Positions 7,226-43,262 of a stretch of DNA of 64,000 nucleotides are shown here, piece after piece; within the stretch, counting starts at the first letter, position 1, and every line of letters starts with the position of its first letter. This DNA is from Hydractinia symbiolongicarpus (taxonomy: Eukaryota; Cnidaria; Hydrozoa; Anthoathecata; Hydractiniidae). The notes below the pieces were generated by a model. It worked only from the letters and a program-made list of their open reading frames with translations, did not search any database and was not told where the DNA came from. The stretch spans positions 28,952,001-29,016,000 of the forward strand of contig NC_079875.1 in NCBI RefSeq assembly GCF_029227915.1, written 5' to 3'. Position numbers and translations under genes: made by a program.

Positions 7226-7455
7226 TTCCTTACTTACTTACTTGGCTGGGGTAAAAAGTGGGGTCGTCGCACCCAAAGACAAGACATAGTCGAACCCCCT
7301 TGCTATGCTTCTTATGATTACTCTATAAGAGAGTGAAGAGTGAGGAAACTCTAGGATTACGGTAGACTGCTTATGACAGAAACAGCCGGGGTAATACAAA
7401 ACCGCTAGGGAAAGATAACCCTCCCCCTTTTATGTGAATGTTAATCAGACAATTT

Positions 7456-7985
7456 TTACATTTTCACAAAAAACAACACATACACAGAAGAGTTATTTAA
7501 ATCGGATGGTGCAACTCTAACAGCTGCTTTACCGTCACATCCATTTCCAGACAAATTTTCGGACTGCAAAAAACAATTAATTGAACCTGTAACGGTGTTT
7601 GAGATAGGGAGTTGCACAATAGGCATACTTTCTTCCCTGTTAGTTGATAAGAAGCATGCATTACATGACGTCGTAGCGGTTATAATGTTGGTGATGATAT
7701 TATTTGCGATAACAGAAGGGCCTGTTAATTCACCCAAGACATGAAGCAGTATTTCTGGCACGTGCTGCTAGGTATTAATGTTGAATGGGGTCTTCCTAAT
7801 ACTGGACATCTCACGCTGTAAGGCTCTTATGAAGGCGGAAGGGTCAACAACTGTGGAAGACTGGGACAGCATGGACATACTCAGCATAACAAACTTTAAT
7901 AGAGGAGAGACAAGAGACCATCCACACCATCAACAGAAAAATGGCAGCACAGAAAGCAGCAGCGTTTGTGGCTGCTCTATTATTT
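7456..7985 (-). pseudogene. USP domain, middle part, copy A
   Basis: The reading frame includes a segment parallel to copy B: VVDPSAFIRAL (B: PVDPSHFLRAM), HVPEILLHVLGEL (B: HDVPEVLEYLLPGL, the counterpart of the USP QQDAxEFL motif), TTSCNAC (B: TTCNSC, a zinc-binding Cys pair) and FLQSENLSG (B: FFESEELSD). A stop lies just before the HVPEIL segment (about 7765) and another near 7930. After 7480 similarity to the other copies is lost, so the catalytic His and Asp boxes are absent. This is the downstream half of the protein split by the LINE at 8030-10887. Confidence 0.75.
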
Positions 7986-8029
7986 GTTGTATTATTGCTG
8001 CAAAAACGTTTTTACTTATGCTCAAATGA

Positions 8030-10887
8030 AAACTATTCGCTTTATTTTAAAAGTATACACAAATCTCGTAAATTTGGAAAAGGAGGCGGAGTTAGCATTT
8101 TATGTTGCTGATCATGTTATTTATAAAAGGCGACACGATCTAGAAATAAATGAAATTAAAGGTATTTGGTTAGAAATATGTCCAAAAAATGCGAAATCGT
8201 ATTTACTTTCCGTAATTTATAGACCCCCGGATAATTCAAAGTATCTTAATAAAGATTTTTCATCTCTTCTATCTGATGTACTTAGACGGTATCAAAGAAG
8301 TTATAATCTTAGGGGACCTTAATGTCGATTTTCTGAAAAAGAACGATCATGTTGGGATTAAAACAGCTTTAACGTTACACGGTTTTAAACAAGTCATTAA
8401 ATCACCAACCCGAATAGCGGAAACGTCACAAACTCTTATCGACATTATCGCTACAACTAATTGCACAGTTATAGCGGATACCAAAGTCATCCCCATTTCT
8501 TTTAGTGACCATGACCTTTTATGTTGTATTAGAAAACAACATCACACTCGTTTCGTTAGCAAAACAATAAATTGTCGAAACTATCGAAATTATGACAAAG
8601 ATAAATTTTGTCAAACACTTTCATCACAGAATTTTCAAGATGTTTATAATTCAACAAACGTCAATAAAGCATGGTCTTTGTTAAAGGGAATTATATATCG
8701 CACCTACGATTCCATGGCTCCATTAATTCGTAAAAAAGTTCGCGGTAAGCCATGTGATCTCAAGAAGGAGATGAACTCACCCGACAATTTGTTACGAAAA
8801 TCGCGTAAAACCAAATCAGAAGCAGATATCACCGCTTATAAAAAAATAAGAAACAAGGTTAATAATAAAGTTCGTAAAGCAAAGAATACGTATCAGCGAC
8901 AGTTATTTGAGGAGAACACCGCAAATCCAGAATCCTTCTGGCGGTCGATAAAAAAAGTGAATACTACTATACAAATCGACGAGAAATTGGTAACCGATCA
9001 ACATTCTATTGCTAATGCGTTTTGTAGATTTTTTTCTAATGTTGTAAATTCACTTAAAAGATCTGCTTTTGTGTTGACAAACTCCGTCTGGAAATATCAT
9101 AAAGAAATACCGAGTAAATCTAACCCAAAATTTCGACTTAAACCAATCACTGTTAATGAAACCATGAAACATGTACAATCATTAAAACGTAAAAAGTCTG
9201 TTGGGCTAGATGATCTACCATCCTGGTTACTCAAAGACTGCATGGAGGTAATCGCTTCACCACTGACATATATTATTAACATGTCTTTTGAAACTTCAAC
9301 TTTTCCAAGTGACTGTTAATAACTATAGACCAATATCTGTTATTCCAGCTATATCCAAGGTGATTGAAAAAGTTGTGCATGAACAATTGACTGCATATCT
9401 GGAAAGTAACAATTTAATAAACAACAACCAGTTCGGTTTCAGGCCTCGTCGCTCAACTGAATTGGCTGCAACAATCTTTATCGACACTGAAATTGAAGGT
9501 TAACGATGGCAAAATGGTCGGTGCCGTATTTTTAGACCTCACAAAAGCATTCGACATGTTAAGTCATGGTAAACTACTGTCAAAATTAAGCAGTTTTGGA
9601 ATTGTTGGAGACGAACACGAGTGGTTCACAGACTATTTGTTTGGTAGATTTCAGCAAGTTCAATACAAAAATTCTTTGTCTGATGAACATCCAGTCAATA
9701 GTGGAGTACCACAAGGGTCAATTTTGGGCCCACTACTATTTATTATGTTTTTCAATGATCTTTGTACCGTAGTGAAACACTCTGAAGTAGTCAAATATGC
9801 AGACGATACTGTTTAATTTGTTGCTGGTAAGGACTTAGAGATCATAGAAACCCGTCTTTCATCCGACATGAATTGTGTACTTGCATGGTGTTTGGAAAAT
9901 GAATTAATTTTAAATCTCGGAGCAGGAAAAACTGAAGCAATGTTATTTGGTTCGAAAAATAACCTCTCTAAACAAAACAGCTCATTAAACGTAACTTACG
10001 GCTACCAAACTGTGAGGGTAACATCCACGTATAAATATCTTGGTGTACTTATCGAACCATCATTGAATTTGAGCAGCAACTTTGATTTAACGTATCAAAA
10101 AGCTTCCGGTAGATTACGTTTACTATATCGCATTCGCCCGCTCATTACAGATCAAGCTGCATTGGCAATTTTTCAAACAATGATTCAACCAGTATTAACA
10201 TATTGCGGATTTGTTCACCTTAATAATTCTCAGACACAACTACTCAAAATCCAATCTTTACATAGACGAGCAACTTCAATTATTGGAAATCAATTCTTGA
10301 CACCACCTGATACTGTCAATATGATAGAAATGCGAGCTTGTAATTTCATTCGCCGTTGCTTGGACAACGATGTGTGTGAAAATTTTAAGAATTACTTCAC
10401 AAAAACAAACCACACAAGAAACACACGTAACAACAGAAATAGCTTGAAATTACCTAATCTTCGTTTGGAATATGCTCGTGGATCTTTCTGTTACACTGGA
10501 GCACATATTTACAATACACTCCCGTTGGACATTGGAAAATGTGAATCATACAATATTTTTAAGTCGCAACTGAGAGAATATTATCTGCGTATTTAGTCCT
10601 TTTTATGGCTTTTTGTTTGTTTTTTGTTTTTCGTCTTGATCAACTCATTTTCTAGTGTGGTATTTTGATTTTTAGCCTTTTGTCTGTGTGTTTTTTGCAG
10701 TTTATATATTTTATACTCACCGTTTTTATTGTACATTTACATGTTCTTGTTTTATTTTTACTAATATTTTTTTTATCCTATTTATTCCAAGGACCCATGT
10801 TGATAACAGACTTTATAATGTCTGAAATGGCCATCCTTGTAAAACATTCGTGAAATAAATAAATAAAAAATAAAAAAATAAATAAAG
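8030..10887 (+). mobile_element. EEP/RT LINE (CR1/Jockey-like), 5'-truncated, inside copy A
   Basis: The element begins within its endonuclease domain and ends in an (AAATA)n-type tail at about 10850-10887, right beside the minus-strand USP frame. A 5' truncation plus a short A/T-rich repeat tail is typical of target-primed LINE insertion. I could not identify a target-site duplication, so the left boundary is uncertain by some tens of bases. Confidence 0.8.
8076..10596 (+). pseudogene. Endonuclease-reverse transcriptase of a CR1/Jockey-like LINE
   Basis: Endonuclease/exonuclease/phosphatase (EEP) motifs appear in order: GGGVSI near 8090, VIYRPPDNS near 8215, ILGDLNVD near 8305 and SFSDHDL near 8500. 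Reverse-transcriptase motifs follow: NYRPISVIPAISKV (9312), NQFGFRPRRST (9427), VFLDLTKAFD (9525), SGVPQGSILGPLLF (9700), KYADDTV (9797) and a thumb-side LGVLIEPSLN (10040). At least five lesions break it: frameshifts near 8100, 8285 and 9490, a deletion near 9305 that removes the segment before NYRPIS, and a stop directly after the YADD box (9814-9816). It would normally nick DNA and copy its own RNA at the target. This copy is dead. Clade assignment is by general look only. Confidence 0.85.
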
Positions 10888-11942
10888 ATTCCGAAGCACA
10901 ATGTAACCAAAATGATGGGATTGCAGTTAATGCTTGCAGGATGGAATTGGTGTAACAGGTGTTTCCCTTATTTTTTAATCCTGCGTGAATTACTTTGCTG
11001 TTGGTAGGTGGGTCTTGGCCTGCTTTAACACGTGTATTGGGCTTGGTGACTGTTGGTTGTTTGGCCTTTGGCATTAAAGGAGTGGGTATGGAAAAGCTGG
11101 TTGAAATAGGGATGTGGCTGTGTTCATTCCATACCTTTGCATTTCTAGCGACCCAAATACAGAAAGAAGCTTTCATGCACATGTCACCAAGTTGACGAGC
11201 AGCTTGAAAAGTTTTTCTGCGGTCCAATCCCAGTCTTTTCAAACACGAAGAAACAGATCGAGAGCAGTAGCCTCTGGCACCTACCTCGATGGCAAAAAGA
11301 TCTATATGACAACCGTTTTGTTTGATGATGTTCACCAGAGGATTGTATTTGGACATCTTAGTTGAATGCCAAGTTTCCATATCTTCCTTGCATGGACAGG
11401 TAAGCTCTATCACAATCACATGCTTTCTGTTGTTGGAATAGATAACGAGATCTGGCCTGAGTGATGTTAAAGCAATATGCCCAGTGAAAACAAATCTGTC
11501 CTTTAAGTCAGACATAATCATCATCCAATCGCAGGCGAGATGTAAAAGACCTGTAAGTTTAAACTTTTTACCAGGAGTGTGGGCACCAGCTTTAACAAAC
11601 TTAATGCTATTTAGCTGTTTTACAGGTGACGTGATGGACTTACAAAAAGTAGTGAGCAACTCCACAAGTTCTTTTAAAACAGAATCGTGGCGGAATGTAA
11701 CCCTGCGCAAGAGTAGTTTTGCAGGCACCTAGGATGTCAGCTGTGATGCACAATTTTTTTTCACATAAAAAACAAGAGGATTCAGTGCATATCCGCCAAC
11801 GCTGTAAAGTACCCGGGGACGGAAGAACGTCGTAGGTCGAACTTAAGCAGAATGACACTAAGTTTGGTTGCATTGCCAACAAGGATTTCCAGGAGAGATC
11901 GTGCTTGATGTAGTTATTCCATTTACTCCAGTACCCTTGCAC
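10888..11942 (-). pseudogene. CCHC finger, PD-(D/E)XK endonuclease and USP Cys box of copy A
   Basis: Minus-strand order: a zinc-knuckle segment (CFLCEKK...ILGACKTT, about 11800-11720), RHDSVLKELVE, then a restriction-like endonuclease: LRPDLVIYS, VIVIELTCPCKEDME, KYNPLV and FAIEVGARGYCS, which together give the PD...ExT...K pattern of R2/NeSL-type retroelements. In the same uninterrupted frame, after a Pro/Lys-rich linker, comes the USP Cys box GLKNKGNTCYTNSILQAL. The frame then runs into the antisense tail of the inserted LINE. One frameshift near 11710 separates the finger from the endonuclease. In copy A the finger His is replaced (ITADILGAC against VSHILGAC in copy C). The fusion of endonuclease and protease in one frame is directly visible. 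Confidence 0.85.
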
Positions 11943-12032
11943 CTGAAGTTGCGTAACTCTACCTACTTGTTCTTCTTCTTCTTCTATTTCCTTTGCAGTG
12001 TTTGTTATTAGCTTCCTGTATGAGTAACATTG

Positions 12033-13030
12033 TCATGAAGCAGGCATTTTAGCTCTCGGACACAGACCTAACCCACCTTTACCGTGTTGGTGCAAGCCCA
12101 TCATTGCCCTCACTTTTACTTCTGCCTCTGCCGTCGTAACTGGTGGTGCCGCTGATACTAGGGGGTCCTTTGAATCCCTAAGCAGTAAGTGTCCGCTTAT
12201 TTTAGCAGATTTAGGAATGGACGTTAGACTTTTTATTGGCAAAGGACATAGTGAGCAGGCCGCGTATAAACAAACATTAGTGGTAGTGCGATGAAGGTGC
12301 AGCCATTTCCTTATAAAAGAAGATACCTCTTGCTCGAGCGTATTGACATACGACATTGAAACTTCGTAAATGAGCAAAGGCCACTGGATACGTGGGATAA
12401 GAAGGTGTTGAAGGATCCACAGTTTCTGAATACCTTTGTAAAAGGATTTGTCAATCGTAAAAAGCCCTGCCGATAGTTTCTCTCCAAGCTCATTGATAGC
12501 TTTTCTATCGGAAATAGAACCGTCTATGATACGACCTAAAAATCGTACTGGCATGGAGTGGAAAGAGGGTGTAAATGAAGAGAAATCTGTTGGATTTAAA
12601 GGCTTTTGAACTGAGAAGGGTGTAGAATTCAAAGACCTGCCTTTTACGATTACTATGCTGCGTGATTTGTGGGCACGGAATTCCATACCAGCCCACTTTA
12701 AAGCGGTAGCACACCTGGTTAATAGCTTTTGCGCACCGCAAACGGACGATGACATCAAGTTTATATCGTCCATGAAAGCTCTCATTAATGGAAATAACAC
12801 TTTGCTTGATGTGATAAACCTTGTTACAGATGCTTCTACCGTATATTCTAGGATGATGTTTATGCCAGCTAAGAAAGGAATGATAGATAGTGTACAGCCA
12901 GCAAATATACCTCGCATTGCTTGGGGCATCTTCAGAAAAAGATTTGCTGTATATGCCGATATAGTAGTTTTTAATAAAAGTAATTCAATGTTGCGGGACA
13001 CCGTAACGCTGAAGAGCAACTTGCATTGGT
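12033..13030 (-). pseudogene. Reverse transcriptase of copy A
   Basis: Read on the minus strand: ALQRYGVPQHWI (about 13025), a frameshift near 12925, then RGIFAGCTLSIIPFLAG (counterpart of the PQG box), MRAFMDDINLMSSS with an intact FxDD catalytic pair (about 12750), HKSRSIVIVKG, VRFLGRIIDGSIS (primer-grip region), LIPRIQWPLLIYEVS and SAKISGHLLLRDS. The finger and first catalytic Asp region (WLDIANAYPSVPH in copy B) is missing here. The Met-start frame that begins at 13109 is out of frame with the fingers because of a missing base in a G run at 13088-13091. The type is the RLE-bearing group of non-LTR elements (R2/NeSL/Utopia and relatives); I do not assign the clade. Confidence 0.8.
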
Positions 13031-13396
13031 TCTTGTAACATAGAAAGGGGACGGTACTCTTCTGTTTGGAAGATTTTACAATCTGGAGGGGAATTAATGG
13101 AGCAACCACAGTTTAACTTAAGTTTAAAACTTTAATTTACTCTTCCCAAAAACATTATAAGAATGTATTTTTAATCTATTCTAGAAATAACCACAGAAAA
13201 CAAAATAAAGTATTAAATACAAACCTGTCTGCATTAGCAGCACATAATTTGTGTATTTTATTTTTTAATTCTAAAAATATTACTATTAAATCAGGAATAC
13301 TGCTTGGTTGATAATTGCTGAGTACAGTTAAATAATTGACAGTCACGCTGCCATCATTGCTCTTTTGAAAATAAGCAAATTATCTTCCAAATAATC
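13030..13396 (-). other. Exon-like 5' module of the retroelement (copy A)
   Basis: This 365-base stretch recurs upstream of copy C, where a hAT transposon splits it (36187-36327 and 40352-40620). It contains a coding-like exon, 13361-13225, flanked by an AG acceptor (TTTTCAAAAG) and a GTTTGT donor (GTATGT in copy C), reading SNDGSVTVNYLTVLSNYQ and ending HKLCAANADR. A second coding-like stretch (PLIPPPDCKIF in copy C) leads into the RT. I do not recognise the protein. It may be the element's N-terminal region, a captured host exon, or host DNA co-duplicated with the element. Confidence 0.5.
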
Positions 13397-13705
13397 AGAC
13401 GAATCCACTTTCTTTTAACCATTGTTTCAGAACTTAACATTTGGAAAACATTAAATAACATTGCACCTTTTCCAGTAACAATCAGCAGCCTGTACGTTAA
13501 CAATGACAAGCTCTATATTTTTCACTTTTTGTTGAAAAAAACTGGCAACATTTTTAGCTCTTAGATCCATTTCTGTGTCCTTTACAGGCTTGCGTGCATG
13601 AAGACGAAGACTGCAATGGATTCTGCAACTCAACACCACATTCTTTCTTTACATGTCCTTTAAAAACCGCGTAATTTTTTGTTGCATAAGTGTATGCTTT
13701 TGGAT

Positions 13706-16671: not shown

Positions 16672-17795
16672 CTAGCAAGGCATGTATAAAACAACTAAAC
16701 ACAACACAAGATAGGCGGTTATTTGGTTGTGCAATATATTGCTATTATGAATATGACAAATGGCATCAGACAGACCTGACAGGATGCTTGAAATCGCGGA
16801 AGTTTTAATTTTCGCACATTTGTTAAACATATCAACGAGAGTAGCATCGCTCTCAAATCCTAAAACAAGCACAGGGGTCGAATTGATTGTCGATAAACCA
16901 TGGCAATAAACAATGTTTGGGTGTTTCCAGCGAGTAAAATGATTTTAGCTTCATAAATTAAGTTAGACATCTGCGTTAAAATGCTGTTTTTTAAAACTGG
17001 CTTGTGTGATTTACACACTCCAAATTCACCGTTATTAAATTCAACTCGTCTCAAAACGTGGTTTGAAGTAACTTTAACAATCGTCAGTGCTACATTTTCA
17101 TCAAATTCAAACATTGGCACATCAGTTTCTAAAAAAACTTCGTCCACGTAACCAAACAAATCTGAGAAATTGGCTGCATCCACGATCTGTACCGTTCTTA
17201 TCGAGAAATATGAAGTTAACTTTAAACGGCTCAATTGTCGGCTACGGTTCGCTAAAATTTTATTTTTGGAAGTCTGCAACGAATTTGTTTGTTTTTCTCT
17301 CTTTCTCTTTTTCTTCTCTAGCTCCAGCTTTTTCAGCAAGTCATTTTTTTCAAAAACTCCACAGGATCCCACCTGCATGTAAAGCAAAACGGTTTTATGT
17401 CAACACAACATATATACCTAAAAATAAAATGGCGCTCGTTTAACAAAAAAACGTGAGAGGAAATTATCATAGGGATTCTAAATAAGATTTTACCTGCGAA
17501 TGCGATGAAGTGATAGGTTCAATGTCCTCATTAGAGTTCACCGACTAAAGAAACAATCGAGCTAATTAAAGTAATGACATCCTGAGAAAGAATTTAGCTT
17601 CAGATCGAACTTTATGGAGCACAAGCCAATTGTACCAATACCGCCTCCTTGATTGTGCAAACCTCCTTGATTGTAAAACCAATTCTAAATAAAGTTACAA
17701 ACCTCTGTAAGCTTATATTTTTCTGTAACTTCGACTATCAGTTTTGTAGTTATATCATTTAATGAAGTACTGTCCATAAGAGAAACAACTTGCTT
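16672..17795 (-). pseudogene. Protein-kinase-like gene, probably broken
   Basis: Three exons fit with phase 0 joins: 17795-17703 (31 codons, MDSTSLNDITTKL), 17544-17494 (17 codons, SVNSNEDIEPITSSHSQ) and 17372-16672. The third exon opens with a Lys/Glu-rich coiled-coil-like stretch, then an N-lobe-like region (VALTIVKVTSN, LIYEAKIILL). After a one-base frameshift near 16947 it resumes as KHPNIVYCHGL, TPVLVLGFESDATLVDMF and LSDAICHIHNSNILHN. The frame then reads QITAYLVL where kinases have the catalytic-loop Asp and Lys (typically HNDIK...N), and stops at 16672. The Tc1-like remnant lies directly downstream, so insertion may have removed the C-lobe. Exact copies of the first two exons lie upstream at 17944-18383. 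It could be a pseudokinase, but the frameshift favours a pseudogene. Confidence 0.6.
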
Positions 17796-18383
17796 CTAAA
17801 TAAAAGCTACACATAGTAAGTCATTTACACACAGTCACGCGTTCCACTGATCAGAAAGCTGTGAAAATTTACAACAAAAGGGATATTTCCAGGAGGGGCC
17901 ATGGCTTGGATGGAGAGTCCTAGAGTATTTAATGTTTTAAGTTTGCGAATGCGATGAAGTGATAGGTTCAATGTCCTCATTAGAGTTCACCGACTAAAGA
18001 AACAATCGAGCTAATTAAAGTAATGACATCCTGAGAAAGAATTTAGCTTCAGATCGAACTTTATGGAGCACAAGCCAATTGTACCAATACCGCCTCCTTG
18101 ATTGTGCAAACCTCCTTGATTGTAAAACCAATTCTAAATAAAGTTACAAACCTCTGTAAGCTTATATTTTTCTGTAACTTCGACTATCAGTTTTGTAGTT
18201 ATATCATTTAATGAAGTACTGTCCATAAGAGAAACAACTTGCTTCTAAATAAAAGCTACACATAGTAAGTCATTTACACACAGTCACGCGTTCCACTGAT
18301 CAGAAAGCTGTGAAAATTTACAACAAAAGGGATATTTCCAGGAGGGGCCATGGCTTGGATGGAGAGTCCTAGAGTATTTAATG
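17495..18383. repeat. Direct tandem duplication, two ~440-bp copies, no mismatches found
   Basis: 17495-17934 is repeated at 17944-18383 (offset 449) with no difference found on visual comparison and a 9-base joint. Each copy contains the two small upstream exons of the kinase-like gene and ends with the same 45 bases of SINE sequence (GGAGGGGCCATGGCTTGGAT). In the distal copy the splice donor after the 17-codon exon is lost at the joint. Either a very recent duplication or an assembly artefact. Confidence 0.9.
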
Positions 18384-22900: not shown

Positions 22901-23595
22901 TAACTGAAGCAACTTCTTATATTTCTGTGCCTGTGTTAACTTTTTCCGGCTTTGGCGATTGTCTTGTAACGTTACAATATACGCTTAGCTGGTAAAAGGT
23001 AACCTAAAAAGGGAATAAACTACAAACTGCGCACTCTTTTCAATACTTTCCGAAAGTGCGCAAAATTTATTTTACCTTTCGTAATTTTTGCTTCCCCTGT
23101 TTTACATCCACCAAGAGTCGTACATTCTGATAACAAATTCGGAGCAGCTGCTTGATGAATGTGTCCACCAACTGGTTGAAGGAAAGAAATATATGATCTT
23201 ACTCAGTTGCTTTCAACTAGACAGGGTAAGGAATGTGTGGAAATTTATTGAAATAAATGCTTACCTCCGCCACGTATGTATGTAGCAAGTGATATCTAAT
23301 AATATGGGTTTATTCAATCCTTTGTTATCTTTGGAGATAAGTAAAATATATAAAGACCTTTATGAAATTATTACTATTCTATATACTATATATATCAGAA
23401 TTGAGAGACTTAGATTTCTCAGACAACGAAAACGATCTTGAGATTTCTAATTCTGGAATTTCAGAGATGCCTTCCTTGCAGTTATTCCACAATTAGAGTG
23501 AATCTGATGATGAACCTGTCGCCCATATCTCTAAAAAAAGCAAATTGAAAGTTGAGAAAAGCAACATGCAAAACCATATTGCATCGTTTCTGTTT
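22901..23595. other. No clear gene; one acidic open stretch
   Basis: Positions 23396-23577 read on the plus strand as an acidic segment (ELRDLDFSDNENDLEI, then one stop, SESDDEPVAHIS) in the same frame as the RT start of copy B. It may be the N-terminal part of that polyprotein or an unrelated exon. Nothing else recognised. Confidence 0.35.
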
Positions 23596-25919
23596 AACAT
23601 TTTTCAAGCTTGTCTAAAGTAGTCTTTTATTCCTGTGCAATGGAGAATTACATCAGAAGTTTATATACCTAAAACAACACACCTTGTCCATCCAACATAA
23701 AGAATTTTCGCCCCATAGCTCTTCTGAATGTTGAAGGAAAGCTCTTTTTTAGTTTGATTTCCAAGCGGTTAGGATCGCATATTATAAAGAAAAACAACTT
23801 CATCAATACTTCCATTCGAAAAGGTTGTATGGAAAAAGTTCCGGATTGCTGGGAACACATGTCTATTGTTTGGTCCACACTTAAGAATGCGAAGGCACAA
23901 CATTCTTCGCTTTCAGCCATATGGCTTGATATTGCTAATGCGTACCCTTCAGTTCCGCACAAGCTGATTTTTATGGCTCTCAGACGCTATGGTGTACCAG
24001 AATCATGGATAAGGCTCATACAGCTATACTACGACAGCTTGTGGAGTAAGTCTTTTTCGGCTTCTGCTCCTTCCAGTTGGCATCGACACTGTAGGGGAAT
24101 TTTTATCGGCTGTACACTTTTCATTATACTATTTCTTGCAGCTATAAACGTTATTATTGAGTATGTGTGTGTTACCCCCAGCCTTATTGATACTGAAGGT
24201 AATAAAAACAAAATCCTAGACCAACCCCCAATAAAAGCTTTTATGGATAATATGTTCTTAATGTCCACGTCAATTCCAAGTACTCAAAATTTATTAAACA
24301 GGTGTACAACAGCTCTTGATTGGGTAGGCATGTCGTTTAGGCCTTCTAAATCACACAGCATTGTTATTGATAAGGGAAAAGTTGTCCAAAGTTCACCGTT
24401 TACAGTTGGCAGCGAAAAAATTCCATCCATTCATTCTAATCCAATTAGGTTTTTAGGCAGAACAATAAACTCATCCTTGTCTGATTCTGCTGCAATACAA
24501 GAATTTCTAAATGATGCCGAAGACAAACTTATGGCTATAGACATGTCCTTTCATAAAGGGGTCCATAAGGTTTGGTTTTTACACCATCTGTTAATTCCCA
24601 GAATCCGCTGGCCATTATTAATTTATGAAGTTTCTATCTACTATCACAAAACTAGAGCAAAGATTTTCTGTTTTCATTAGGAAATGGTTAAAACTACATC
24701 ATTCAATTTCCAACATTTTCTTATATTCCTCGACATCGCCTTGTCCTCTTCCCCTGAAAAGTCTTGCATCTGTTCTCAAATCTGCCAAAATCAGTGGACA
24801 TCTGTTACTAAGAGATTCTGTCGACCCTTGTGTGTCTAAGTGTGTACCAGTTTTGAAAGCTGGAAATTGGAAAGTTAGTGAGGCAGTTCTTTCGGCGGAT
24901 AGTCAGCTCAATTTCAAAAGGATTTTAGGTTTGCATCAGACTGGTCGAGCTGGCTTAGGGCTCTTAGACCACAAAAATATACCACCAAAAGGCACTTATG
25001 CTTACCGAAAGCTTGTTTCCAATATCATTGAAGAAAATGAAGAAGATATTTACCATGCCAGAGCTGTACAGTTGCATTTGCAAGGCAATTGGACGAAATG
25101 GTGCTCTGATATAAAAAATGATTTATCTTGGAGAACAATTCTTTCACTGCCACAATGTCTAACTTCATTTTGTATAGGGGCAACCTACGACACCCTTCCC
25201 TCTCCAACCAATCTTGTGAGATGGGGAATTGAGAAAGACAAAAGTTGCATTCTGTGCAAGAAACCATCCTCAAATGTCTCTTACATATTGGGTGCCTGTA
25301 GGACCTCCCTTACGCAGGGTAGATACACATACCGTCATGACTCGGTTTTAATAGTTTTGGTTAAGGCATTAAAAGAGTTTTTGGTATCATATGAACCTCT
25401 TAGCTTTCCAAGTGCAACAAAATTAATTTCATTCCGGCCGGTCAATCACCATCTAAGAAGAGGCATACAAAGTGTCCAGGCCTTCTTCACCTTGCTTCCG
25501 ATTGGAAAATACTGTCAGATTTAGATTCTGTTTTAGTTGTTTCACCATACATTGCAATAACACAACTGCGCCCAGACGTGTTATTCATATCCAGTTCTTC
25601 CAAAACTGTAATTATGTTAGAACTGACTTGTCCATGTGAAGAGAACACGGAATATTGGCACAAACGAAAGCTTAACAAATATTCTTCACTTTGTTATGCT
25701 ATGAAAAACAATGGATGGATCGTGCATTTCTTTGCCATTGAGGTGGGTGCAAGGGGTTTCTGTTCAGAATCAGTAAGGACCTGTTTTCGTCGCCTTGGTT
25801 TCCCTCGCCTTGGTTTCCCTAACAAGCCTTTACGTTCCCTATTAAAATCCCTAACTTTTACCTCCATGAGTGCTTCTTTTTACATCTGGATGTCTCGAAA
25901 TTCTACCACTTGGGTTTAG
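23596..25919 (+). pseudogene. RT, CCHC finger and PD-(D/E)XK endonuclease of copy B
   Basis: RT: EVYIPKTTHL, NFRPIALLNVEGKLFFS, NTSIRKGCMEKVPDCWEH, AIWLDIANAYPSVPHKL with the first catalytic Asp, RGIFIGCTLFIILFLA, IKAFMDNMFLMS, HSIVIDKGK, IRFLGRTINSSLS. The catalytic FMDD of copy A reads FMDN here, so this copy should be catalytically dead. The frame 24625-25524 continues with SAKISGHLLLRDS, GLHQTGRAGLGLL and a knuckle CILCKK...YILGACRTS whose His is Tyr, then RYTYRHDSVL. Endonuclease: LRPDVLFIS (25566), VIMLELTCPCEEN, KYSSLCYAM, FAIEVGARGFCS. Lesions include a stop near 23624, and frameshifts near 23685, 24660 and 25500. Confidence 0.85.
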
Positions 25920-26078
25920 CCTGAAAAGGCCCCAATCATTCCTGAAGTTTCTTCTGTTACAAATATGGAATAAAAGAAATCAAAAAACCCTGAGAAATCT
26001 TCCGCAAATCACACAAAATCTTGTAAAATCAAAAAACCCGAAAAACTTGATATAAGGTCTTCCAAAACAACAGTCGCA

Positions 26079-26967
26079 TTGCCATCTAACCCTGATTTTA
26101 TGAATAGCGGTCTAAAAAACTTGGGAAACACATGTTATGCAAACTCCGTCTTACAATGTTTTTATAACCTTCCAAAAGTTAAAGAAGCCATTTCTGTAAG
26201 CAAAACAACCTCAAAGTTAGGCGAAGCATTTGTAGGTGTTCTTCAAAGTGTGGCTGTTTCTAGAAGTCCAGTTGATCCCTCCCATTTTTGCGTGCTATGA
26301 AACATCATATCTCAGCTGCGAAGGAAAGTGCATTTAATATCTCTGCTCAGCATGACGTCCCCGAGGTTCTTGAATATCTCCTACCTGGTCTGTCATTAGA
26401 TTTTCCATTTCTTGGAAGTCTTTTTAGTATTGGCATCAAGACATCAACCACTTGCAATTCATGTCATATTACCAGCTCCTTAGAAGTTATAGCACCATGC
26501 ATCCAACGTTCTCTGCACCCTACGTTACAATCTTCCTTAGATAATTTCTTCGAAAGCGAGGAGTTGTCAGACACCAATGCCTACTTCTGCCATGTTTACA
26601 ACGCTCATCAAACTGCTCTAGTTGAAAAAGAAGTAGTGTCGTGCGGTTCCCATCTCATTTTACAGCTAAAACGTTTTGCTAGTGCCAACGGTCTTGCGTC
26701 AAAAATTGCCTCTCGTATTACTGCTTACCCTGGTACCCTTTCCATACCTTTACCGGAGATGGAGAAGTGAAATTTCGTAAATATTTTCAATTAAGGGCTA
26801 TTATCAACCATTTCGGCAACTTAAATAATGGTCACTACACAACCATAGCCTTCGACCAAATGGTACACAGGTGGATACATTGCAACGATAGAGCAGTAAT
26901 TTTCTGTGATGACCGCCTTATTAACAGTCACGAGTCATATGTTTTCTTTTTGGAAGAGCTGAGATAA
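26079..26967 (+). pseudogene. Ubiquitin-specific protease (USP/C19) domain of copy B
   Basis: USP motifs in order: Cys box SGLKNLGNTCYANSVLQCF (26106), the substitute for the QQDAxEF motif AQHDVPEVLEYLL (26345), zinc pair TTCNSC and a second pair reduced to CHVYNAH (CHLCNAH in copy D), HLILQLKRF (26652), the His box GNLNNGHYTTIAF (26815) and the Asp box WIHCNDRAVIF (26873), ending FFLEELR* at 26967. Length from Cys box to stop is about 285 residues, a compact USP. Two single-base losses in T runs (26285-26289, 26749-26751) break the frame; copy D has the extra T at both sites. Catalytic residues Cys, His and Asp are all present. Expected activity is removal of ubiquitin or ubiquitin-like tags; its role for the element is unknown. 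Confidence 0.9.
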
Positions 26968-26989
26968 GAATATTTTAACCGGAGTCAGC

Positions 26990-27360
26990 AAGGGGGCTTG
27001 ATTACACTGAGTTTTGTCTTTGGAGAGTGACGACTCCACTTATTACCCCAGTCAAAAATAAAACAAAATCAAATAAAAATTAAGTTAGCAAGGGGGTTTG
27101 ATCATACTAGGTCTTGTCTTTGGAGAGTGACGACTCCACTTATTACCCCACTTAAAAAAAAAAAAAAAAAAAAATAAAAAAAAAAATATTAGCAGGTGGG
27201 TTTGATCACACATGATCTTGTCTTTGGAGAGTAACGACTCCACTTATTACCCCACTTAAAAAAAATAAATAAATAAAAAATAAAAAAAAAATATTAGCAG
27301 GTGGGTTTGATCACACATGATCTTGTCTTTGGAGAGTAACGACTCCACTTATTACCTGAG
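26990..27360 (+). repeat. 3' UTR hairpin repeat, four units (copy B)
   Basis: Four units of about 100-105 bases, each AGCAAGGGGGTTTGATCA-like, then CTTGTCTTTGGAGAGTGACGA-type text and CTCCACTTATTACCCC, at 27016, 27116, 27220 and 27325. TGGAG...CTCCA can form a short stem in each. Spacers are A-rich. The same unit occurs three times in copy C, twice in D and once in A. Confidence 0.85.
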
Positions 27361-27700
27361 TTAAAAACAAAGAATAGCACAGTTGAACAGAAAGTGGTCA
27401 AAGTTAATTTTAGGAAGATAGGGATGTCTAGTTTCTGCTGATGACCGTCCGCGGACCTCTTCCAGGTGACCCAGCTAGACATCCAGGGTAATTAGGTTCA
27501 GAAATATGGGTCGAAACCTACCTGCCCTTGGTTAAGGTTCTGTTCATCTTTTCAAATGTGTTGTGTCCTTGTTATTTTATTTTTTATATTTTTTTTAATT
27601 AAATCCTTGTAAAAAGGGAGAATTGGAAACAAGCTAGAGGTTGTACTCCTCTAGAGAACATGCCTGGTGGCTTGCCACCTCTTTGTAAATTATTTTCTTA
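27361..27700 (+). other. Terminal 3' UTR of copy B
   Basis: Shared with copy D (49930-50310). It contains ATGTCTAG...CTAGACAT arms around 27424-27483 that can pair, and TGGTGGCTTGCCACCTC near the end. The 34 bases 27625-27658 are the reverse complement of 50211-50245 in copy D, so this hairpin segment is inverted between copies. Confidence 0.75.
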
Positions 27701-30019: not shown

Positions 30020-30655
30020 ATGGAAAAGAAAGATTGTGTACAATGGTTTATGGAACGTGGCCTGTCCACATGAGGAACAATACAAGAGCTTAATATGCGT
30101 GTTAATCGATTCAAATTATACCCATCACTTGCGGAAAAATTGAGAGTCAAACGAGAAAGAAATTTTAGTTTTGGTACAACATTAGATCCCAATCTTATCC
30201 CTCCCATTTCAGCTCCCTGGTGTCCTAAAGAGGAATTGTATCCAATAGTTACAGCATCGATATTTAAAGAATATAGTTGTAGAAAAAGAGAAGGTAGTTT
30301 AGGTCAGCAACAGAAAGCTTATGCTATGTTGACTAGCAGGAAAATAGTTTCAGTAAAAACACATGTTGCAGGTGATAATAATGTATTTGTTAGAGCTCTT
30401 GTTAAAAAATCATATGGTGAATTAACAAGACCTACAGTTATTCTATTTAGTAGTAATATTCCAGTTAAAGCCTACTGTGAATGTCCTGTTGGTGTAAGTG
30501 GCTTATGTTGCCATACATTGGCCTTGCTTCTCTATTTAAAAAACTTTCACGAAACAAAGGAAAAAATTTTGGCTCTATCTTGCACTGAGCAACTGCAGAA
30601 ATGGCATAGCAGAACAAGAAAATTTCTTACTCGTCCAATGAATCTCTCCACATGA
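30020..30655 (+). pseudogene. SAP-SWIM protein, YqaJ nuclease part deleted
   Basis: From ATG at 30020 the frame encodes a SAP-like DNA-binding helix pair (CVQWFMERGLST, stop TGA at 30071, then GTIQELNMRVNRF), then KRERNFSFGTTL, and a SWIM zinc finger with CEC and CCH (AYCECPVGVSGLCCHTLALL, about 30470-30530). In ISL2EU elements this protein continues into a YqaJ-type nuclease; here it ends at 30655 after crossing the deletion point near 30610. The single TGA and the deletion make it a pseudogene. Confidence 0.75.
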
Positions 30656-32057
30656 ATTCTAGTAGATGCAATATCAAAATTTGCAGCAACATCAGCAGGT
30701 GAAAATTGATCTGTATCTTTTTGGGCAGGTCGATTTAAAAAAACACCTTTTATGGAACAATGATCTTGTACGAAAAAACCTCTATCTGACATAAGTTCAT
30801 GTTCAGGTCGCACCCATTCAAGAACAGCAGTTTCTTCAGTTATAGCGCTGTCACTAATTGAACCAGGATATATGTCACTGAAAAAAAGGCCACTTCCATG
30901 TGCTGAGATTCCGATTAAAGCTTTACCGGTGACAGTGTTTTTATAGTTAGAAAATATAAGGGAATTAAGTTCAAAGTTTGTAGCATGTTGAAACTTAAAT
31001 TCTGTACAATCAATAACTAAGTCGGTCAACCCATGTCCTGTTCGAACAAAAATATCTGGCATTTTCTTTAATAAAAATCCATCATCTGGTTTTAAGTCCA
31101 ACTGACTGAAAAGTGTTTCTAAAAAAACAAGCCATCCAACAAATATCCTATACATTGTGCTTTTACCAACACCTGCCATATAAGCCATAACGCCAAGATG
31201 AAGAGAATGACGACAAATTGTTAAAACACATAAAAGTTCGGTTGCTTTGTTTAATGATCTTTCCCCAGTTCCTTTACAGTCAGGGTATTTTATAATGTGT
31301 AAGTATGGTGAAACAATTTGAAATAGCAAGTCAAATTTTTCAACGGGCAAACCAGCTAAATATTCTATATTGCTAGATTTCTGTTGTAAGTTGTCATAGG
31401 AAAATATATACTTTTGAAGGTTTAGAATTGTTCCTGTTTTTTCAAGAATTATTTTATTTCGTTTATTAACAAATGATTGCAGGTAGTGGTTTTTAATTTT
31501 TAGTAATTTATTTTCATGGGTAAGATTCTTTATTTTATTATTTGATTCGTTTATTTTTTTTTAAGTTCTTCAATAATTTTGTCTTTAGATATTAATTTAG
31601 CAGATAACTGTCTCTTTGAGGGTTCTCGTTGTATATGTACTGGCGTAGAATATATTCTTTTAGCAGAAGGTTTTCTCTTTACACTAGATGGTGTACGAAG
31701 TGTTTGGATGAATTCAAATTTTTTTTTTAGCTCCTTAACTTTCATTTTATTTGCTGCACTTTGGGTTTTTTCAAGTCTTTCTTTTGCTCTATTATATTTT
31801 TGCTCAATAATAGGAATTTGTGACTGGGGTAATGTAACATCAGGAAGAGTGTCATTAATTTTATAACCAGCACTCCAATGTTCACAACATATGTGTCCGT
31901 TTTTCCAATTAACTCCAGCAGTTTTAATAATTTTTTGGTACTCCATTTGTAAATCCTTGGTCCTTGGCAATCTGTAAAATACAAGCTTTTCTCCATTTGA
32001 ATTTTGTGTTCGAAAGTTATTATAGCAAAGGGATGACGAGCAGAACCATTTCACCAT
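30547..32057 (-). pseudogene. THAP-DDE transposase of ISL2EU type
   Basis: The minus strand starts with a THAP finger (CSSSLC, FYRLPRTKDL, HICCEHW, about residues 5-62), then a Lys-rich coiled-coil linker. A one-base shift in the T9 run at 31554-31562 separates this from INESNNKIKNLTHENKLLK and the DDE domain: LVIDCTEFKF (Asp 1, about 31015), LMSDRGFF (Asp 2, about 30790) and RIHVERFIGRVRNF (Glu, about 30640). The triad is complete. Residues after VRNF are antisense SWIM sequence, so the true C terminus is lost. The protein would cut and move elements carrying the matching termini. Confidence 0.85.
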
Positions 32058-32248
32058 GTTTTAGATAAGTTAAATGTTGTAGAAAAGTATAAATATAAGG
32101 AAAGAATATGTACTAAAATTAGCAATTTATGCCTCAACTGCGCCCATACGGTATAAACTTTATGAGCAAATGACCGGGAAACCAATAGGCGTAATCGAGT
32201 GCAACATAAACAAGCTAAAAATTTGTCCCTACAAGGACTAAAACAAAA

Positions 32249-35907: not shown

Positions 35908-36186
35908 AGGTAATTACTCAAGAACGTAACAGAACTTAAACAAAAGCCAAATCAATAGCACATTGCGTTCATAGATTGGGATGGAATTATAATAAATACA
36001 AAATAATAATTATTTATTAATTATTATTTTGCTAAAATTTGGCAAATTTCCATTTTAGTCCACTTGTTGTTTCTGATCTTGTGGTGTTCTGTTGTGATCT
36101 GTTGGATTGATCAAATTTATAGTAGCAGAGGAATCAATGTGAAATAACGAAATACTACTTAAGAAAAAATTTAAAAAAGACTTATG
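35908..36186. other. Short unannotated stretch
   Basis: AT-rich sequence between the hypothetical gene and the 5' module of copy C; nothing recognised. Confidence 0.4.
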
Positions 36187-36917
36187 ATTATTTGGAAGAT
36201 AATTTGCTTATTTTCAAAAGAGCAATGATGGCAGCGTGACTGTCAATTATTTCACTATACTCAGCAATTATCAACCAAACAGTATTCCTGATTTATTGGT
36301 AATATTTTTAGAATTAAAAAATAAAATCAGGGGCGGATACAGGTTTAAAAAGTCCTTAGTCAAAATTTTTCGTGAAGCCAAAAATGTTTTGTCGCAAATG
36401 CCCCAATTATCATTTTTTAATGTATAATTACCAGACACCTATTTCATAAGAATAAATTGAAAGAAAAAACAACATATATCTAGCTACTTTTTCATAGCAG
36501 CTGGTATTACAAAATAATGTTTTTTGAAAACTTGAAGGGTTGCATTAAGAACCCATAAAAATCTTCTTTCTTCTTTCTTGCACATCACATAATGTAGAAA
36601 ACCATGGACAAATTGAAACTAACATGAAATGGGTCAAATTGAGCAAATTGTCAAAACCGGCCAATGGAATAATGAATGAATCTATCAAATTTGACATCTA
36701 AACATCAGTATACCGGGCTGACATAATAACAAAGAAATATATAAAAACAAAATAAATCCAAAATTAAGAAACTTTTACAGTGAACCTAAGATGTTAGGTG
36801 TATAATTACCAACTTAAAAGTAAGACTTAGCAAAAGATGAGTAAGTAAAGGTAAGTATGGGTAAGTAAGGATTAAAGTAAATTGTTTAAATATTATTAAG
36901 TTTTAAGTGAATTTAAA

Positions 36918-39282
36918 TTAACTGTAATCTTCTAGGATCTCGGGCAAAAATATTAAGTACATATCTACCTTTGGAATAATTTCTTGATGAATGTACATTA
37001 AGGAAAGGCGATTAAGACGATCTTCTGTCATGGTACTACGGCAATAATTTTTTAATCGTCTCAATGATGAAAAACTTCTTTCACATTCACATGAAGTAAT
37101 AGGGATAGTAGCAAGAATGCGAATAGCAACATTTATTGACTTTAAAGTTTGAACAATGGTTTCAGGTCTTGTACCCTGATAATCCAAAGCAAACTTTCCC
37201 ACAGTAAAAATCTACAAACCTTTTGAATTTGCTCTTCTAATCTTTATTGGAGTAAACCATTGAAACTACTTTGGCTGGTACAATGCACAATCCATTATAC
37301 ACTACAAAGTTTTCAAAATTAAACCTCGAGTTAAGTTCACTGTTTAAATGGTCCAAGATTGGTATGGTTAAGGCTTTTTTATAATAATCCTTTGGACTGA
37401 TAGCAGGTTGGTTGTCCCTTAATGTTTGACTTCTGATAACCCGTTTCATTTTCTCCTCAACTCCTACACTTTCCGCAACATCTAATGCCTCCTTGTACCT
37501 TGAGTTGTGAAAAAAATCTACATTGTTCCTGCAACTCATATTTGTATTTTTCAAATTAGTGATGTATTAAACATTATCTGTAATATCAATACTTCTATCT
37601 TGACGCAAAGTTGTAACACCATGTGTTAGTGCCAAAACATTTCTGGTCACAACCACAGATACAATGAACTCAAAGGTAGAAATTTCATTAAAAAAGAGTG
37701 TGCTTTGGTGGCAGTTTCATTATTGACAATTTTATTTAAATTAACTGTCATATCATCAAGGGTCACATAAATTGCAACATAAAGTTCCTGAAAATCTTCC
37801 ATGCCATCAATACGCTCAATCCACCGTGTTCGGCAGACATCTTTAAGTTTAGACTTGAGAGTTAGGACAATATTGAATGACATTTTTTTCAAGTTGCCTT
37901 TTTTGTGAAAAGTTAAAGAAGTAGGAAATTTCTTTAATTTTCTTCCAGCGTAATGGAACAAGATTTAGCAACACAAAGGTTTAAACGGTGGCTATGACAA
38001 TGAACATAAATAGCCTTTTTGTTAACTGACAGAAGACGAGCTGATAAACCATTTAAATGTCCAGCAACATTACCAGCCCCATCATAACCCTGGCCCCTGC
38101 AATTACTAAAATCTAGATTTAAATTTTGCAGAGCAGACAACATCAGCTGGGCTAAATCTGCACCAGTTAAACCCTCTTTACAATGAAGAAATTTAAGAAA
38201 ATCTTCCTTGATATTTCTACTTGAATCAACATAACGGATTACTAAAGAAAGTTGTTCCTTATTAGAACAATCTAAAAGTTTATCAGCCAGGACAGAGAAA
38301 AATTTATTCTTCCTAATTTCAGAAACAATTTTATTAGTTATTACTTCACCACAACAATTTATTAAATCATTTTGAGTGGTTTTGGAAATATATGTTGCGT
38401 TTTTAGGGCTTTTTGATAAATGCTCTTTTAAATCAGTATCACCACCTCGAACTCGAAAATTCAGCAATTCTACAAAATTGCCAGTTCTCCGTACTGAATA
38501 TTCCCCTGGAGCTGAATGATACTTAGCATCATCACGATGTCCTCTTAGTGCAATACCTTTCCGTCCACACAATATGATGGCATCTATAATGGGAATCAGT
38601 TTTTTTCGGTTTTCTAATACAACAGTTTTCCTTTGGTTGTCAATTAAGACATCAATTGGTTGGGATTTACCTTCAACAGCATTTATCAGTGAGGTAAAAG
38701 CATCACTATGTATGCCATTGGGAACATTTTCATGGCGCTTGAAAGCAGCACATGCATCAGGCCAATATGTTAATGGCTCACGTAACAGTTTCATTATTTT
38801 ATATGCCTTGGTTGGAAATCTGTCAACATCTTGTCTTGGAGAATAACATAGCCAACTAAATGACTTAAGTCTTTCCCGACGAAAACTTTTAGTTTTTTTT
38901 TTAGGAAAAACAAGTCATCACATTTGTGAACATTTTTTATCAAATTACATAATTCTTCTGGCCTAGGACCTTTACATTTGTCCCTATATCCAGCAACATC
39001 CCACTCATTTATTGAAGAAGTGACAAGAGATGAGCTACCTGCTTTTGATGATGATTCTGAGAAAAATGAAGGAAATAATAAAGGCTTTTGGGAGAAAAAG
39101 GATACAGGGGAAGAAAGATTAGCAGGGGAAGTAAAAGTAGAAGAATTTTTTCCAAAAACTTGGCTGGCATTGGAGGTAGGAATGGAAACCGTTAAACTAT
39201 TTTTAGAATTATATGTAGATAAACTTTTTATTGAATCAGTACTATTTATTTTAGTTATCGGCAAACTGTTTTGTGTGGACAT
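36918..39282 (-). pseudogene. hAT transposase (TTF finger, DUF4371, dimerisation domain)
   Basis: Minus-strand order: Ser-rich N terminus (NSLPITKINSTDSIKS), NEWDVAGYRDKCKGPRPEEL, a frameshift in the T10 run at 38893-38902, then SFSWLCYSPRQDVDRFPT (TTF-type region, second Cys pair lost), WPDACAAFKRHENV, DUF4371-like FFSVLADKLLDCSNKEQLS and CRGQGYDGAGNVAGHLNG, YVHCHSHRLNLCVAKSC. After further frameshifts near 37945, 37670 and 37560 come DVCRTRWIERIDGMEDF, VVTRNVLALTHGVTT, and the dimerisation domain ATIPITSCECERSFSSLRRL ending at 36918. The domain order is that of ZMYM/ZBED-type hAT transposases. At least four lesions make it inactive. Confidence 0.85.
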
Positions 39283-39318
39283 ACTTTTTACTTTAGGTAA
39301 TACAAGCTTATCGCTGCA

Positions 39319-39974
39319 TTAATCGGTCCAAAATGATAGCTTTGCTTGTACTTTATCACTAGCAAAACCCACAGTTTTAATTGTTTTTACAAGTTTTTTT
39401 TCATTGGAAAAGGATTTATGCTTACTACTATGATTTAACAAACGTATACAGGGAACAAAATGGTTTGGTTTATAATTTTCACCTGGTCTCGATACATAAC
39501 CATGCATAACATAACAAAGCTCTATGTCAGAAGCTATGTTTTCATTGGGGATTCGAGGTTGAACTTTCTCCGCAAACAATAACTTATAACATGTTTCGCC
39601 GCATTCGGGGTATGTTACATTTATATTGTGATTAATGAGAGTAGAAAGGCCAAGTATGTCAAGAAGACCTGCCCATCTGCCGTTTTTGCAATTATACAGA
39701 GCTTCAAATTGCACTAATTCTGTAAGTGAAGAACCATGGGGGTAATCTTTATCAGATATAGCCAGGGACATATCAAATACTTGTTTGAAATTCTTAAAAA
39801 GTTGGTTATTATTTAGTTGTCCTTGTTCAAAAATAGAGGGGATGCGTAGAATAAAACTCAGCACGAATAAACAACTCTAAAGAAGTAAGTAACCTTAAAT
39901 CATGGCACAATGAACTGTCACCTGACAACATTAATGATACCGAGCTGTATAAGCAGTTTCCACTTGCTTCAGAG
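39319..39974 (-). pseudogene. OTU-like cysteine-protease domain fused to the hAT transposase
   Basis: An exon starts at 39974 after acceptor CTTGTTTTAG and reads SEASGNCLYSSVSLML, then SGDSSLCHDLRLLTSLELF, FYSTHP. A one-base shift in the A5 run at 39829-39833 leads into RWAGLLDILGLSTLI, NVTYPECGET and PNHFVPCIRLLNH, ending TAA at 39319. GNC with its following helix, the WAG segment and NHFV are the Cys and His blocks of OTU-type deubiquitinases; the Asp of DGNC is Ser here. The stop at 39319 is in frame with the transposase Met at 39282 (12 sense codons between), so the two were probably one polypeptide. Activity is doubtful in this copy. Confidence 0.7.
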
Positions 39975-40814
39975 CTAAAACAAGAAAAACAAAGCCAATC
40001 TGAGTCTTGTGCCTAACTAGTAATACATTCACAAACATAACAACACAACTCAGCTACCATTTATATATTTTTTTATGACACGTTTTGTAAAATAAAACTA
40101 TTCTGAGAATAAAACAAAAGAATATTTAATAAAAACAATTAAGGTCAGCCATATTAAATCTTTGGCTTTTGTTTCAGTTTATAACTGAAATATTGCATTG
40201 TTATATCAACTCCCGATCGTCGGTGCACGTTGTTTACATAAAAAGAACTTTACGCACTACTATGCCCCTCTCGATTGACATCGTCCGTTATACAGGTAGA
40301 CAATTTACCTTCGTCACTTGACGTCTTTGACGTGGTATGTATCCGCCCCTGAAAATTCACAAATTATGTGCTGCTAATGCAGGCAGGTATGTATTTAATA
40401 CTTTATTTTGTTTTCTGTGGTTATTTCTAAAATAGATTAAGAACAGATTCTTATAATGTTTTTAGGAATAGTAAATTAAAGTTTTAAACTTTTAAACTTA
40501 AATTAAACTGTTGTTGTTCCATTAATTCCCCCTCCAGATTGTAAAATCTTTATGCAAAAACGTTCAATTTTTGAAACAAAAGAGTACTGTTGCCTTTTTA
40601 TGTTACAAGAACCAATGCAGGTTATATCAAAGTGTTTTAACATAAGTCTTAATTATCATACGCAAAGATTTAATTGTGAATGGTGCACGAGGGGATAGTG
40701 CAATATTGGTAATAGTTACCATCTGTAAAAAGAGAAAAATAGCAAAAAAGACAAATTGTATGAGAAAGTTGGCTAAGCTCTACTTGCAGTTTCTTATGTG
40801 CAAACAGACAGCCT

Positions 40815-42590: not shown

Positions 42591-42674
42591 ATTGCAGTCA
42601 GCAGCACAACTTCTGGCTTATGTCACCAAGGGGGTTAACTATTCTTATTTTTTTTTTATTTTTATTTTTTTGTA

Positions 42675-42920
42675 GTCTTGTCTTTGGAGAGTGACGACTC
42701 CACTTATTACCCCAGTCAAAATAAAAGTGAAAAACAAAAAAAATTACGCCAGCAAGGGGGTTTGACTGTACCAGGTCCTACCTTTGGAGAGTGACAACTC
42801 CACTTATTACCCCAGTCAAAAAGGAAACAAAAAAAAATTTATGTTAGCAAGGTGGTTTGACTGCACTGGTCTTATCTTTGGAGAGTGACGACTCCACTTA
42901 TTACCCCAGTCACACAAGAT
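42675..42920 (+). repeat. 3' UTR hairpin repeat, three units (copy C)
   Basis: CTTTGGAGAGTGACGACTCC-type units at 42680, 42780 and 42874, spaced about 95-105 bases, as in copy B. The middle unit has GACAACTCC. Confidence 0.85.
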
Positions 42921-43262
42921 TGTATAGAGTAGGACAGATGAAAAGTTGTGGATGAAAGAAATCTCTAGTTCCTGCTGAAAACTGTTCGTAGACCTGTTTT
43001 GAGGTGACTCAACTAGACATTTTGGGTACCTTGGTTGAGGAATATGAGTCGAAACCCTTCTACCCTTTACAGAAGTCCTGTCCTACTCCCTCTGTCTGTT
43101 TGTTTGTTCAATTTTGGTGCCAATTATCTCCTTGAAAAGGGAAGAATTGTGTTCCTTTATATGAGCATATTCTTTAGAGGAGCAAAACCTCCAGAATTTA
43201 AATTTTAAGTCTTAACTGGTCGAGTTTATCATTGTGCATGGACTTTGTAATTTATTCTCAGA

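Follow-up and report, generated by a model that had tools for sequence, protein, structure and literature searches.

Proteases of the ubiquitin family are already on record in DNA transposons and, in the form of Ulp1, in a few long interspersed nuclear elements (LINEs) with a restriction-like endonuclease (RLE). The latter include NeSL and Utopia-1_TSP, described as carrying an Ulp1-like protease in the text available from PMC4640811; for DNA transposons, the available text of PMC2836005 gives OTU and Ulp1 domains in Ginger1 and some Helitrons (OTU in the Helitrons) and a C19 domain in a Trichomonas Transposase_11 protein. A retroelement with its own ubiquitin-specific protease (USP, family C19) was not found in the open-licence PMC literature, a search outside which Repbase, Dfam and subscription papers lie. 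Here we analyse 64,000 nucleotides of the hydrozoan Hydractinia symbiolongicarpus (contig NC_079875.1 of assembly GCF_029227915.1, positions 28,952,001 to 29,016,000 of the forward strand; the whole 64-kb stretch is called the window below). According to the available part of the Hydractinia genome paper, LINEs make up 4% of each genome and ~60% of repeats are unclassified (PMC11067881). The window holds four decayed copies (A to D) of a non-LTR retroelement whose intact relatives encode, in a single chain, a reverse transcriptase (RT), a CCHC knuckle, a PD-(D/E)XK endonuclease of the RLE type and, at the C-terminus, a USP.

Self-comparison of the window placed copy A on the minus strand (~7236-13397) and copies B (23575-27700), C (36185-43262) and D (48995-50310) on the plus strand, all four being interrupted by stops or frameshifts. 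The profile searches proposed by a first-pass annotation of the window, itself made from the letters alone, matched Pfam UCH in single frames of every copy (E-values 1e-06 in A, 8.5e-06 in B, 6.6e-08 in C and 3.7e-07 in D) and RVT_1 in copy B (3.2e-16) and copy A (1.1e-04, under RVT_1's own cut-off). That annotation had described four related copies sharing the order RT, CCHC finger, endonuclease, USP and 3' untranslated region (UTR); the relationship and the presence of a USP in each copy hold, whereas the full order does not, as only copies A and B show an RT core when matched to intact relatives and copy D consists of USP and 3' UTR only. The join between RLE and USP is seen directly, twice, in uninterrupted frames. 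In copy A a frame without a stop (11728-10781, minus strand) spans the RLE motif, a linker and the USP Cys box, and in copy C a single frame (41413-41919) contains both the end of the RLE and the UCH match.

Three protein searches yielded relatives: one with the RLE-USP part of copy B (best 120 of 126 matches), one with the RT part of the related protein P0005 (best 120 of 314), and a third in which only the 7986 candidates richest in shared words were scored (best 120 of 2180). Among the matches listed, the first two gave 203 distinct proteins, with 181 element-like, 101 possessing a near-complete USP and 58 combining complete RT, RLE and USP in a single chain; adding the third brought these figures to 197, 110 and 62, of 282. 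Full-length predicted proteins of the family occur in metagenome data. Organisms named among the listed element proteins are H. symbiolongicarpus (gene models P0001, P0068, P0070 and P0127) and a Pseudomonadales metagenome-assembled genome (MAG; P0053 and P0188), the latter label being taken for contamination. The best match to the RLE-USP part of copy B is P0001, with 87% identity over 64% of the query, in keeping with a hydrozoan host; it shows the same RLE-USP join as the window copies and is the only one of the four H. symbiolongicarpus models to reach the USP.

The chain order RT, CCHC knuckle, PD-(D/E)XK endonuclease, USP is the same in 58/58 complete proteins, as is the position of the USP, which forms the C-terminus with at most 9 residues beyond it. 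RLE and USP are separated by a Ser-, Pro- and Lys-rich linker with a median length of 55 residues. Because the USP stands C-terminal to the RLE within one chain in all 58, it is not a co-duplicated host gene, and the independent host USP gene that the first-pass annotation had considered as a source did not emerge. Five relatives (P0135, P0136, P0137, P0141 and P0147) are ~1760-2150 residues in length and have a long extension at the N-terminus (including C2H2 fingers in P0147) or a long linker between RLE and USP. Viral contigs contained no relative detectable with the copy A frame or with alignment A1. Genome contigs searched with the same alignment yielded a single locus, L001: an RLE element whose RLE-bearing frame ends without a USP, on a contig that carries a bacterial MAG label. 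One coding stretch recurs at both ends of the L001 contig (1-4403), as it would if the element were arrayed in tandem or the contig had been assembled from a circle. Among other mobile elements, P0220 from Littorina saxatilis is a Helitron-type protein (Helitron_like_N, PIF1) that ends in a full UCH domain (2.1e-56).

The RT catalytic D/D/D is retained in all 58 complete relatives. So are the P, D, E, first K and Y of the RLE, the second K of KX2KY being present in 46; the endonuclease gives a fold match to the RLE of R2, and its pattern fits the LINE endonuclease description, including knuckle and KX2KY, in the available text of PMC5678591. A CX2-3CX7-8HX4C knuckle precedes the endonuclease in 110 of the 120 USP-bearing proteins with an RLE start, and its C, C, H and C are found in 58, 56, 58 and 58 of the complete proteins, respectively. 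For the USP, the Cys, the His and the Asp of ND are present in 58/58 complete proteins, while the 101 near-complete domains have the Cys in 101, the His in 100 and the Zn cysteines in 100-101. The canonical third catalytic residue, at the position before the Asp of ND, is N in 74, D in 20 and S in 7, that is, N or D in 94/101. Fold matches of the domain include USP2, USP46/12, USP36 and USP1, at ~20-29% identity. The best explanation for a USP that has kept its active site intact at the C-terminus of an RT-endonuclease chain is that it is a catalytically active deubiquitinase, as these residues predict. Pfam detected no ubiquitin-like domain in 24 distinct USP-bearing proteins scanned as alignments, nor Peptidase_C48 in any of them at E 0.01; 21 of the 24 have sequence before the RT and 3 begin at the RT, such that an N-terminal domain could not show in those three.

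Selection on the domain was gauged by codon comparison between window copies, with one best match per codon. Expressed as ratios of observed nonsynonymous to synonymous differences (pN/pS), which are not rates because the B-C and B-A pairs are close to synonymous saturation, the USP gave 0.36 for B-C (301 codons), 0.43 for B-A (89) and 0.41 for B-D (249), the RLE 0.40 for B-C and 0.41 for B-A, and the RT with thumb 0.21 for B-C (87 codons) and 0.36 for B-A. The constraint on the USP frame was about equal to that on the endonuclease.

A FastTree phylogeny of RT plus RLE comprised 122 proteins (65 with USP, 7 with a partial USP, 50 without). Its core clade of 56 rows, inside which the Hydractinia models fall, contains 47 rows with USP, 5 with a partial one and 4 without: the Hydractinia gene models P0068 and P0070, P0140, which is cut in the RLE, and P0079 (888 residues), which stops 38 residues behind it. 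With 52 of 56 core-clade rows carrying a whole or partial USP, the proposal of an RLE non-LTR retroelement encoding a C19/USP domain is supported, and a family whose full-length copies lack the domain is not what was found. The sister clade of 40 rows has 18 with USP, 2 partial and 20 without, 4 of these being cut within the RLE; all 26 rows outside both clades are without USP. The remaining 16 USP-less sister-clade rows are best read as USP loss. In a quick IQ-TREE analysis of 50 rows (26 USP-bearing, 13 USP-less and 11 outgroup, leaving out RLE-cut and partial-USP rows), a single clade of USP-bearing rows was rejected (approximately unbiased test, p-AU 8.5e-06) and the USP label needed 4 changes, which fits one gain plus three losses. 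Pfam found no other protease in 6 scanned USP-less sister-clade proteins, and a replacement protease in these lineages was rejected on that account. The apparent loss, with no other protease in the six, indicates that the USP is not indispensable and that retrotransposition does not always need it.

Two trees of the USP itself were built, one from 28 of the 58 complete element USPs with all 22 host USPs of the first search, the other from 22 element USPs, 26 host USPs and one Helitron protein. One element-USP clade was not rejected in either: in the first, p-AU was 0.654 and the constrained tree 6.3 log units better (28 versus 22 rows); in the second, p-AU was 0.448 and the constrained tree 2.1 log units worse (22 versus 27 rows). 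These trees replaced a FastTree version (58 element and 22 host rows) in which 5 host rows fell among the element rows with support of 0.73-0.88. To the earlier question of whether the domain clusters with host USPs the answer is mixed: most element USPs stand apart from them, while the free trees place 4/28 and 2/22 among hosts. Taken together, the trees support one ancient event that placed a cellular USP behind the endonuclease, followed by descent with about three losses.

Those few element USPs among hosts would suit a different history, in which several retrotransposon lineages independently captured different cellular USPs at the same place, and the USP of the Helitron protein P0220 implies that capture can recur. 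However, a single element-USP clade was not rejected in either USP tree, position and order are uniform in the complete proteins, and one gain with three losses accounts for the RT plus RLE tree; we consider repeated capture unlikely. Chance neighbourhood, in which parts of a host USP gene were co-duplicated with bits of a retroelement, could be suspected from the window, where 4/4 copies are broken and nested with other repeats, but the 58 single-chain proteins come from elsewhere, P0001 has the same join at 87% identity, and the USP is constrained between copies. The complete relatives refute this co-duplication, for which we see practically no chance.

As to function, the reading that we prefer, at a probability of about 0.5, is that of an RLE non-LTR lineage whose single protein ends in a predicted-active USP, likely stripping ubiquitin from the element's own protein or ribonucleoprotein particle against host destruction. 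The full protein would bind its RNA, the tethered USP would mostly deubiquitinate, in cis, the RT/RLE protein to which it is joined, and deubiquitination would take place before or during target-primed reverse transcription. Protection of the RT complex and action at ubiquitinated chromatin had both been offered as possible roles by the first-pass annotation. Two points lead us to favour self-protection: the USP is physically joined to the chain that it would shield, and ubiquitylation restrains a LINE protein in mammals, where TEX19.1 promotes the polyubiquitylation and breakdown of L1-ORF1p, likely by way of UBR2, as reported in the available text of PMC5570191. Tentatively, and with somewhat less than even confidence, we suggest that a whole, old lineage acquired its cellular USP in a single event, that selection has maintained the activity, and that the enzyme serves as a counter-defence by removing ubiquitin tags from the RT/RLE protein. 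If true, ubiquitin-dependent destruction of retrotransposon proteins would be an ancient, general host defence well outside mammals. Several observations weigh against self-protection by a once-captured, selected enzyme: we infer the role of the USP from a sequence that does not favour the element's own protein over chromatin as its target; the third catalytic residue is Ser in 7/101 and one His is Tyr; 20/40 sister-clade rows are without USP, including 4 that break off inside the RLE; resolution of the USP trees is weak; and pN/pS was computed between decayed copies, with synonymous sites near-saturated in B-A and B-C.

In the main rival explanation, an active USP would have chromatin or repair proteins at the insertion site as its substrates (ubiquitinated histones H2A/H2B, PCNA, FANCD2-type) and would open that site or steer how the integration intermediate is repaired. 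Lying directly behind the DNA-cutting domain, the USP would sit at the target, and several of its nearest folds, which include USP2, USP46/12, USP36 and USP1, act on histones, PCNA or FANCD2. Ubiquitin-family proteases borne by transposable elements have also been proposed to act on DNA repair in transposition, in the available text of PMC2836005. Likeness to many USP folds, however, says nothing of substrate, and the RLE-USP linker would let the domain reach either one. We give a chromatin or repair role somewhat less than one chance in three. It would be more surprising if the domain were no deubiquitinase and served just as a tether that binds ubiquitin, or as a protease that processes the element polyprotein. 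Some USPs are indeed inactive, and terminal proteases can release themselves from polyproteins; yet Cys, His and Asp are kept in 58/58 and the Zn cysteines in 100-101/101, residues that a binding-only domain need not retain, and no ubiquitin-like domain was seen by Pfam in the 24 proteins, which makes a role of this kind improbable. The full-length relatives with intact catalytic sites are material for asking whether and how LINEs fight ubiquitin-based host control, possibly at the level of protein, chromatin or repair, and the natural gain and loss of the USP within the lineage provides built-in controls.

Beyond the coding region, copies B, C and D carry tandem 3' UTR units of ~70-105 bases (26984-27371, 42674-42911 and 49782-49946, respectively), 2 to 4 per copy with a count that differs between copies, mostly followed by A-rich tracts. 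The unit with core TTTGGAGAGTRACGACTCCACTTATTACC occurs 9 times in the window (B 4, C 3, D 2) and in 0/100 shuffles, none being expected by chance; copy A has a single unit of diverged form. A 3'-terminal domain is common to B, C and D, with an identical end point and unlike 3' flanks. The predicted unit structure is an inner hairpin with an outer G-C stem, in which both sides change in 3/13 pairs; as the covariation term (+0.38) is not favourable, the fold stays a prediction. No common flank longer than 6 bases, of the kind that a target-site duplication would leave, was found for any of the four copies, whose 5' ends are uncertain. The window contains no rRNA family at the Rfam gathering threshold and no tRNA by ARAGORN, and thus no sign of rDNA or tRNA targeting; a site-specific R2 in rDNA was rejected for want of rRNA.

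The copies have decayed in different ways (see table). The copy A insert has plus-strand open reading frames (ORFs), none with a Pfam match above cut-off, and the USP His box was not found in copy A by the comparisons run. Copy B reads AFMDN where relatives read AFMDD. In copy C the coding match to intact relatives begins behind the RT (P0005 residue 846, P0068 residue 815), except for a short decayed stretch (40352-40623) in common with copy A, and its insert holds a DUF4371 (hAT-like) ORF (37937-38914, minus strand). Copies A and C have a common 5' region of 82-97% DNA identity (13018-13397, minus strand, versus 36185-36327 plus 40352-40623, plus strand), their coding parts being far more diverged; one RT deletion joint may be common to both.

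Table. Parts of the four element copies in the window, with strand and the basis of each assignment.
Feature	Position	Strand	Basis
Copy A RT C-terminal half (AFMDD retained) and thumb	12036-13112	-	RVT_1 1.1e-04; aligned to P0005/P0010
Copy A linker and CCHC knuckle (H -> D)	11643-12032	-	homologous to copy B
Copy A RLE, PD...E...K	11051-11728	-	
Copy A RLE-USP linker and USP Cys box, in frame with RLE	10886-11050	-	UCH 1e-06; P0010 match reaching 10886
Insert splitting copy A USP	~7957-10885	not assigned	gap between two USP matches
Copy A USP middle part	7540-7956	-	P0010 residues 1092-1232, 44% identity
Copy A diverged 3' UTR hairpin unit	7236-7306	-	alignment A4
Copy B RT, 5' truncated, one catalytic Asp lost	23575-24638	+	RVT_1 3.2e-16 (frame 23673-24677); P0005 residues 318-675
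Copy B thumb, linker, knuckle (H -> Y)	24634-25425	+	P0005 residues 675-938; zf-RVT 9.3e-04, below cut-off
Copy B RLE	25404-25916	+	matches to copies and relatives
Copy B linker and USP Cys box (GLKNLGNTCYANS)	25974-26297	+	43% identity to copy C
Copy B USP middle part	26276-26767	+	UCH 8.5e-06
Copy B USP His box (LNNGHY) and protein end	26758-26964	+	comparison with copies and relatives
Copy B four tandem 3' UTR hairpin units	26984-27371	+	unit alignment and search
Copy B 3'-terminal conserved domain	27418-27700	+	alignment A5
Copy C 5' piece common with copy A	36185-36327	+	97% identical to 13255-13397 (-)
Insert in copy C, ~4 kb	36328-40351	not assigned	inferred from collinearity with copy A
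Copy C knuckle (His intact) and RLE, RT core missing	40815-41562	+	matches to copies and relatives
Copy C linker and USP, Cys box to His box, stops and frameshift	41611-42587	+	UCH 6.6e-08
Copy C 3' UTR units and 3'-terminal domain	42674-43262	+	unit search, alignment
Copy D USP, 5' truncated behind Cys box	48995-49759	+	UCH 3.7e-07 (48995-49579); 90% DNA identity to copy B
Copy D 3' UTR units and 3'-terminal domain	49782-50310	+	unit search, alignment

Elsewhere in the window, a DDE_Tnp_4 transposase ORF (4.5e-30) adjoins a THAP-like ORF (8e-04) at 30550-32060 on the minus strand. A satellite with 126/243-base units occupies 60900-63999, up to the window end, with a related unit at 51285-51395, and a 449-base tandem duplication of 100% identity (17495-18383) is possibly recent or an assembly artefact.

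Compared with described systems, the family differs from R2 in that R2-type proteins (R2Tg, R2 of Platysternon, R2Bm) are without a USP in the descriptions available; moreover, the R2 clade inserts in 28S rRNA genes, whereas the 64 kb analysed here contain no rRNA and the 3' flanks of B, C and D differ. An Arg between the first two knuckle cysteines, reported in available accounts for many RLE clades (e.g. R2, Dong, NeSL and Utopia), is absent from 110/110 USP-bearing matches and from 65/65 USP-less relatives. NeSL and Utopia-1_TSP resemble the family in combining an RLE LINE protein with a cysteine protease from the ubiquitin/SUMO system, but theirs, as far as described, is N-terminal and Ulp1-like, while the one here is C-terminal and of the C19/USP type. 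Ginger1, some Helitrons and the Transposase_11 element likewise have proteins fused to ubiquitin-family proteases, the last also of C19 type by the available description; unlike the present family, these are DNA transposons without reverse transcriptase. With cellular USPs (USP2, USP46, USP12, USP36, USP8/Doa4, plant UBPs) the element domain has in common the whole USP fold, Cys, His and Zn cysteines, but it is ~20-29% identical to them over fold matches, mostly groups apart and is fused behind RT and RLE. Within the open-licence literature covered, we regard an RLE LINE lineage with a C-terminal USP as new relative to the known Ulp1-bearing RLE LINEs.
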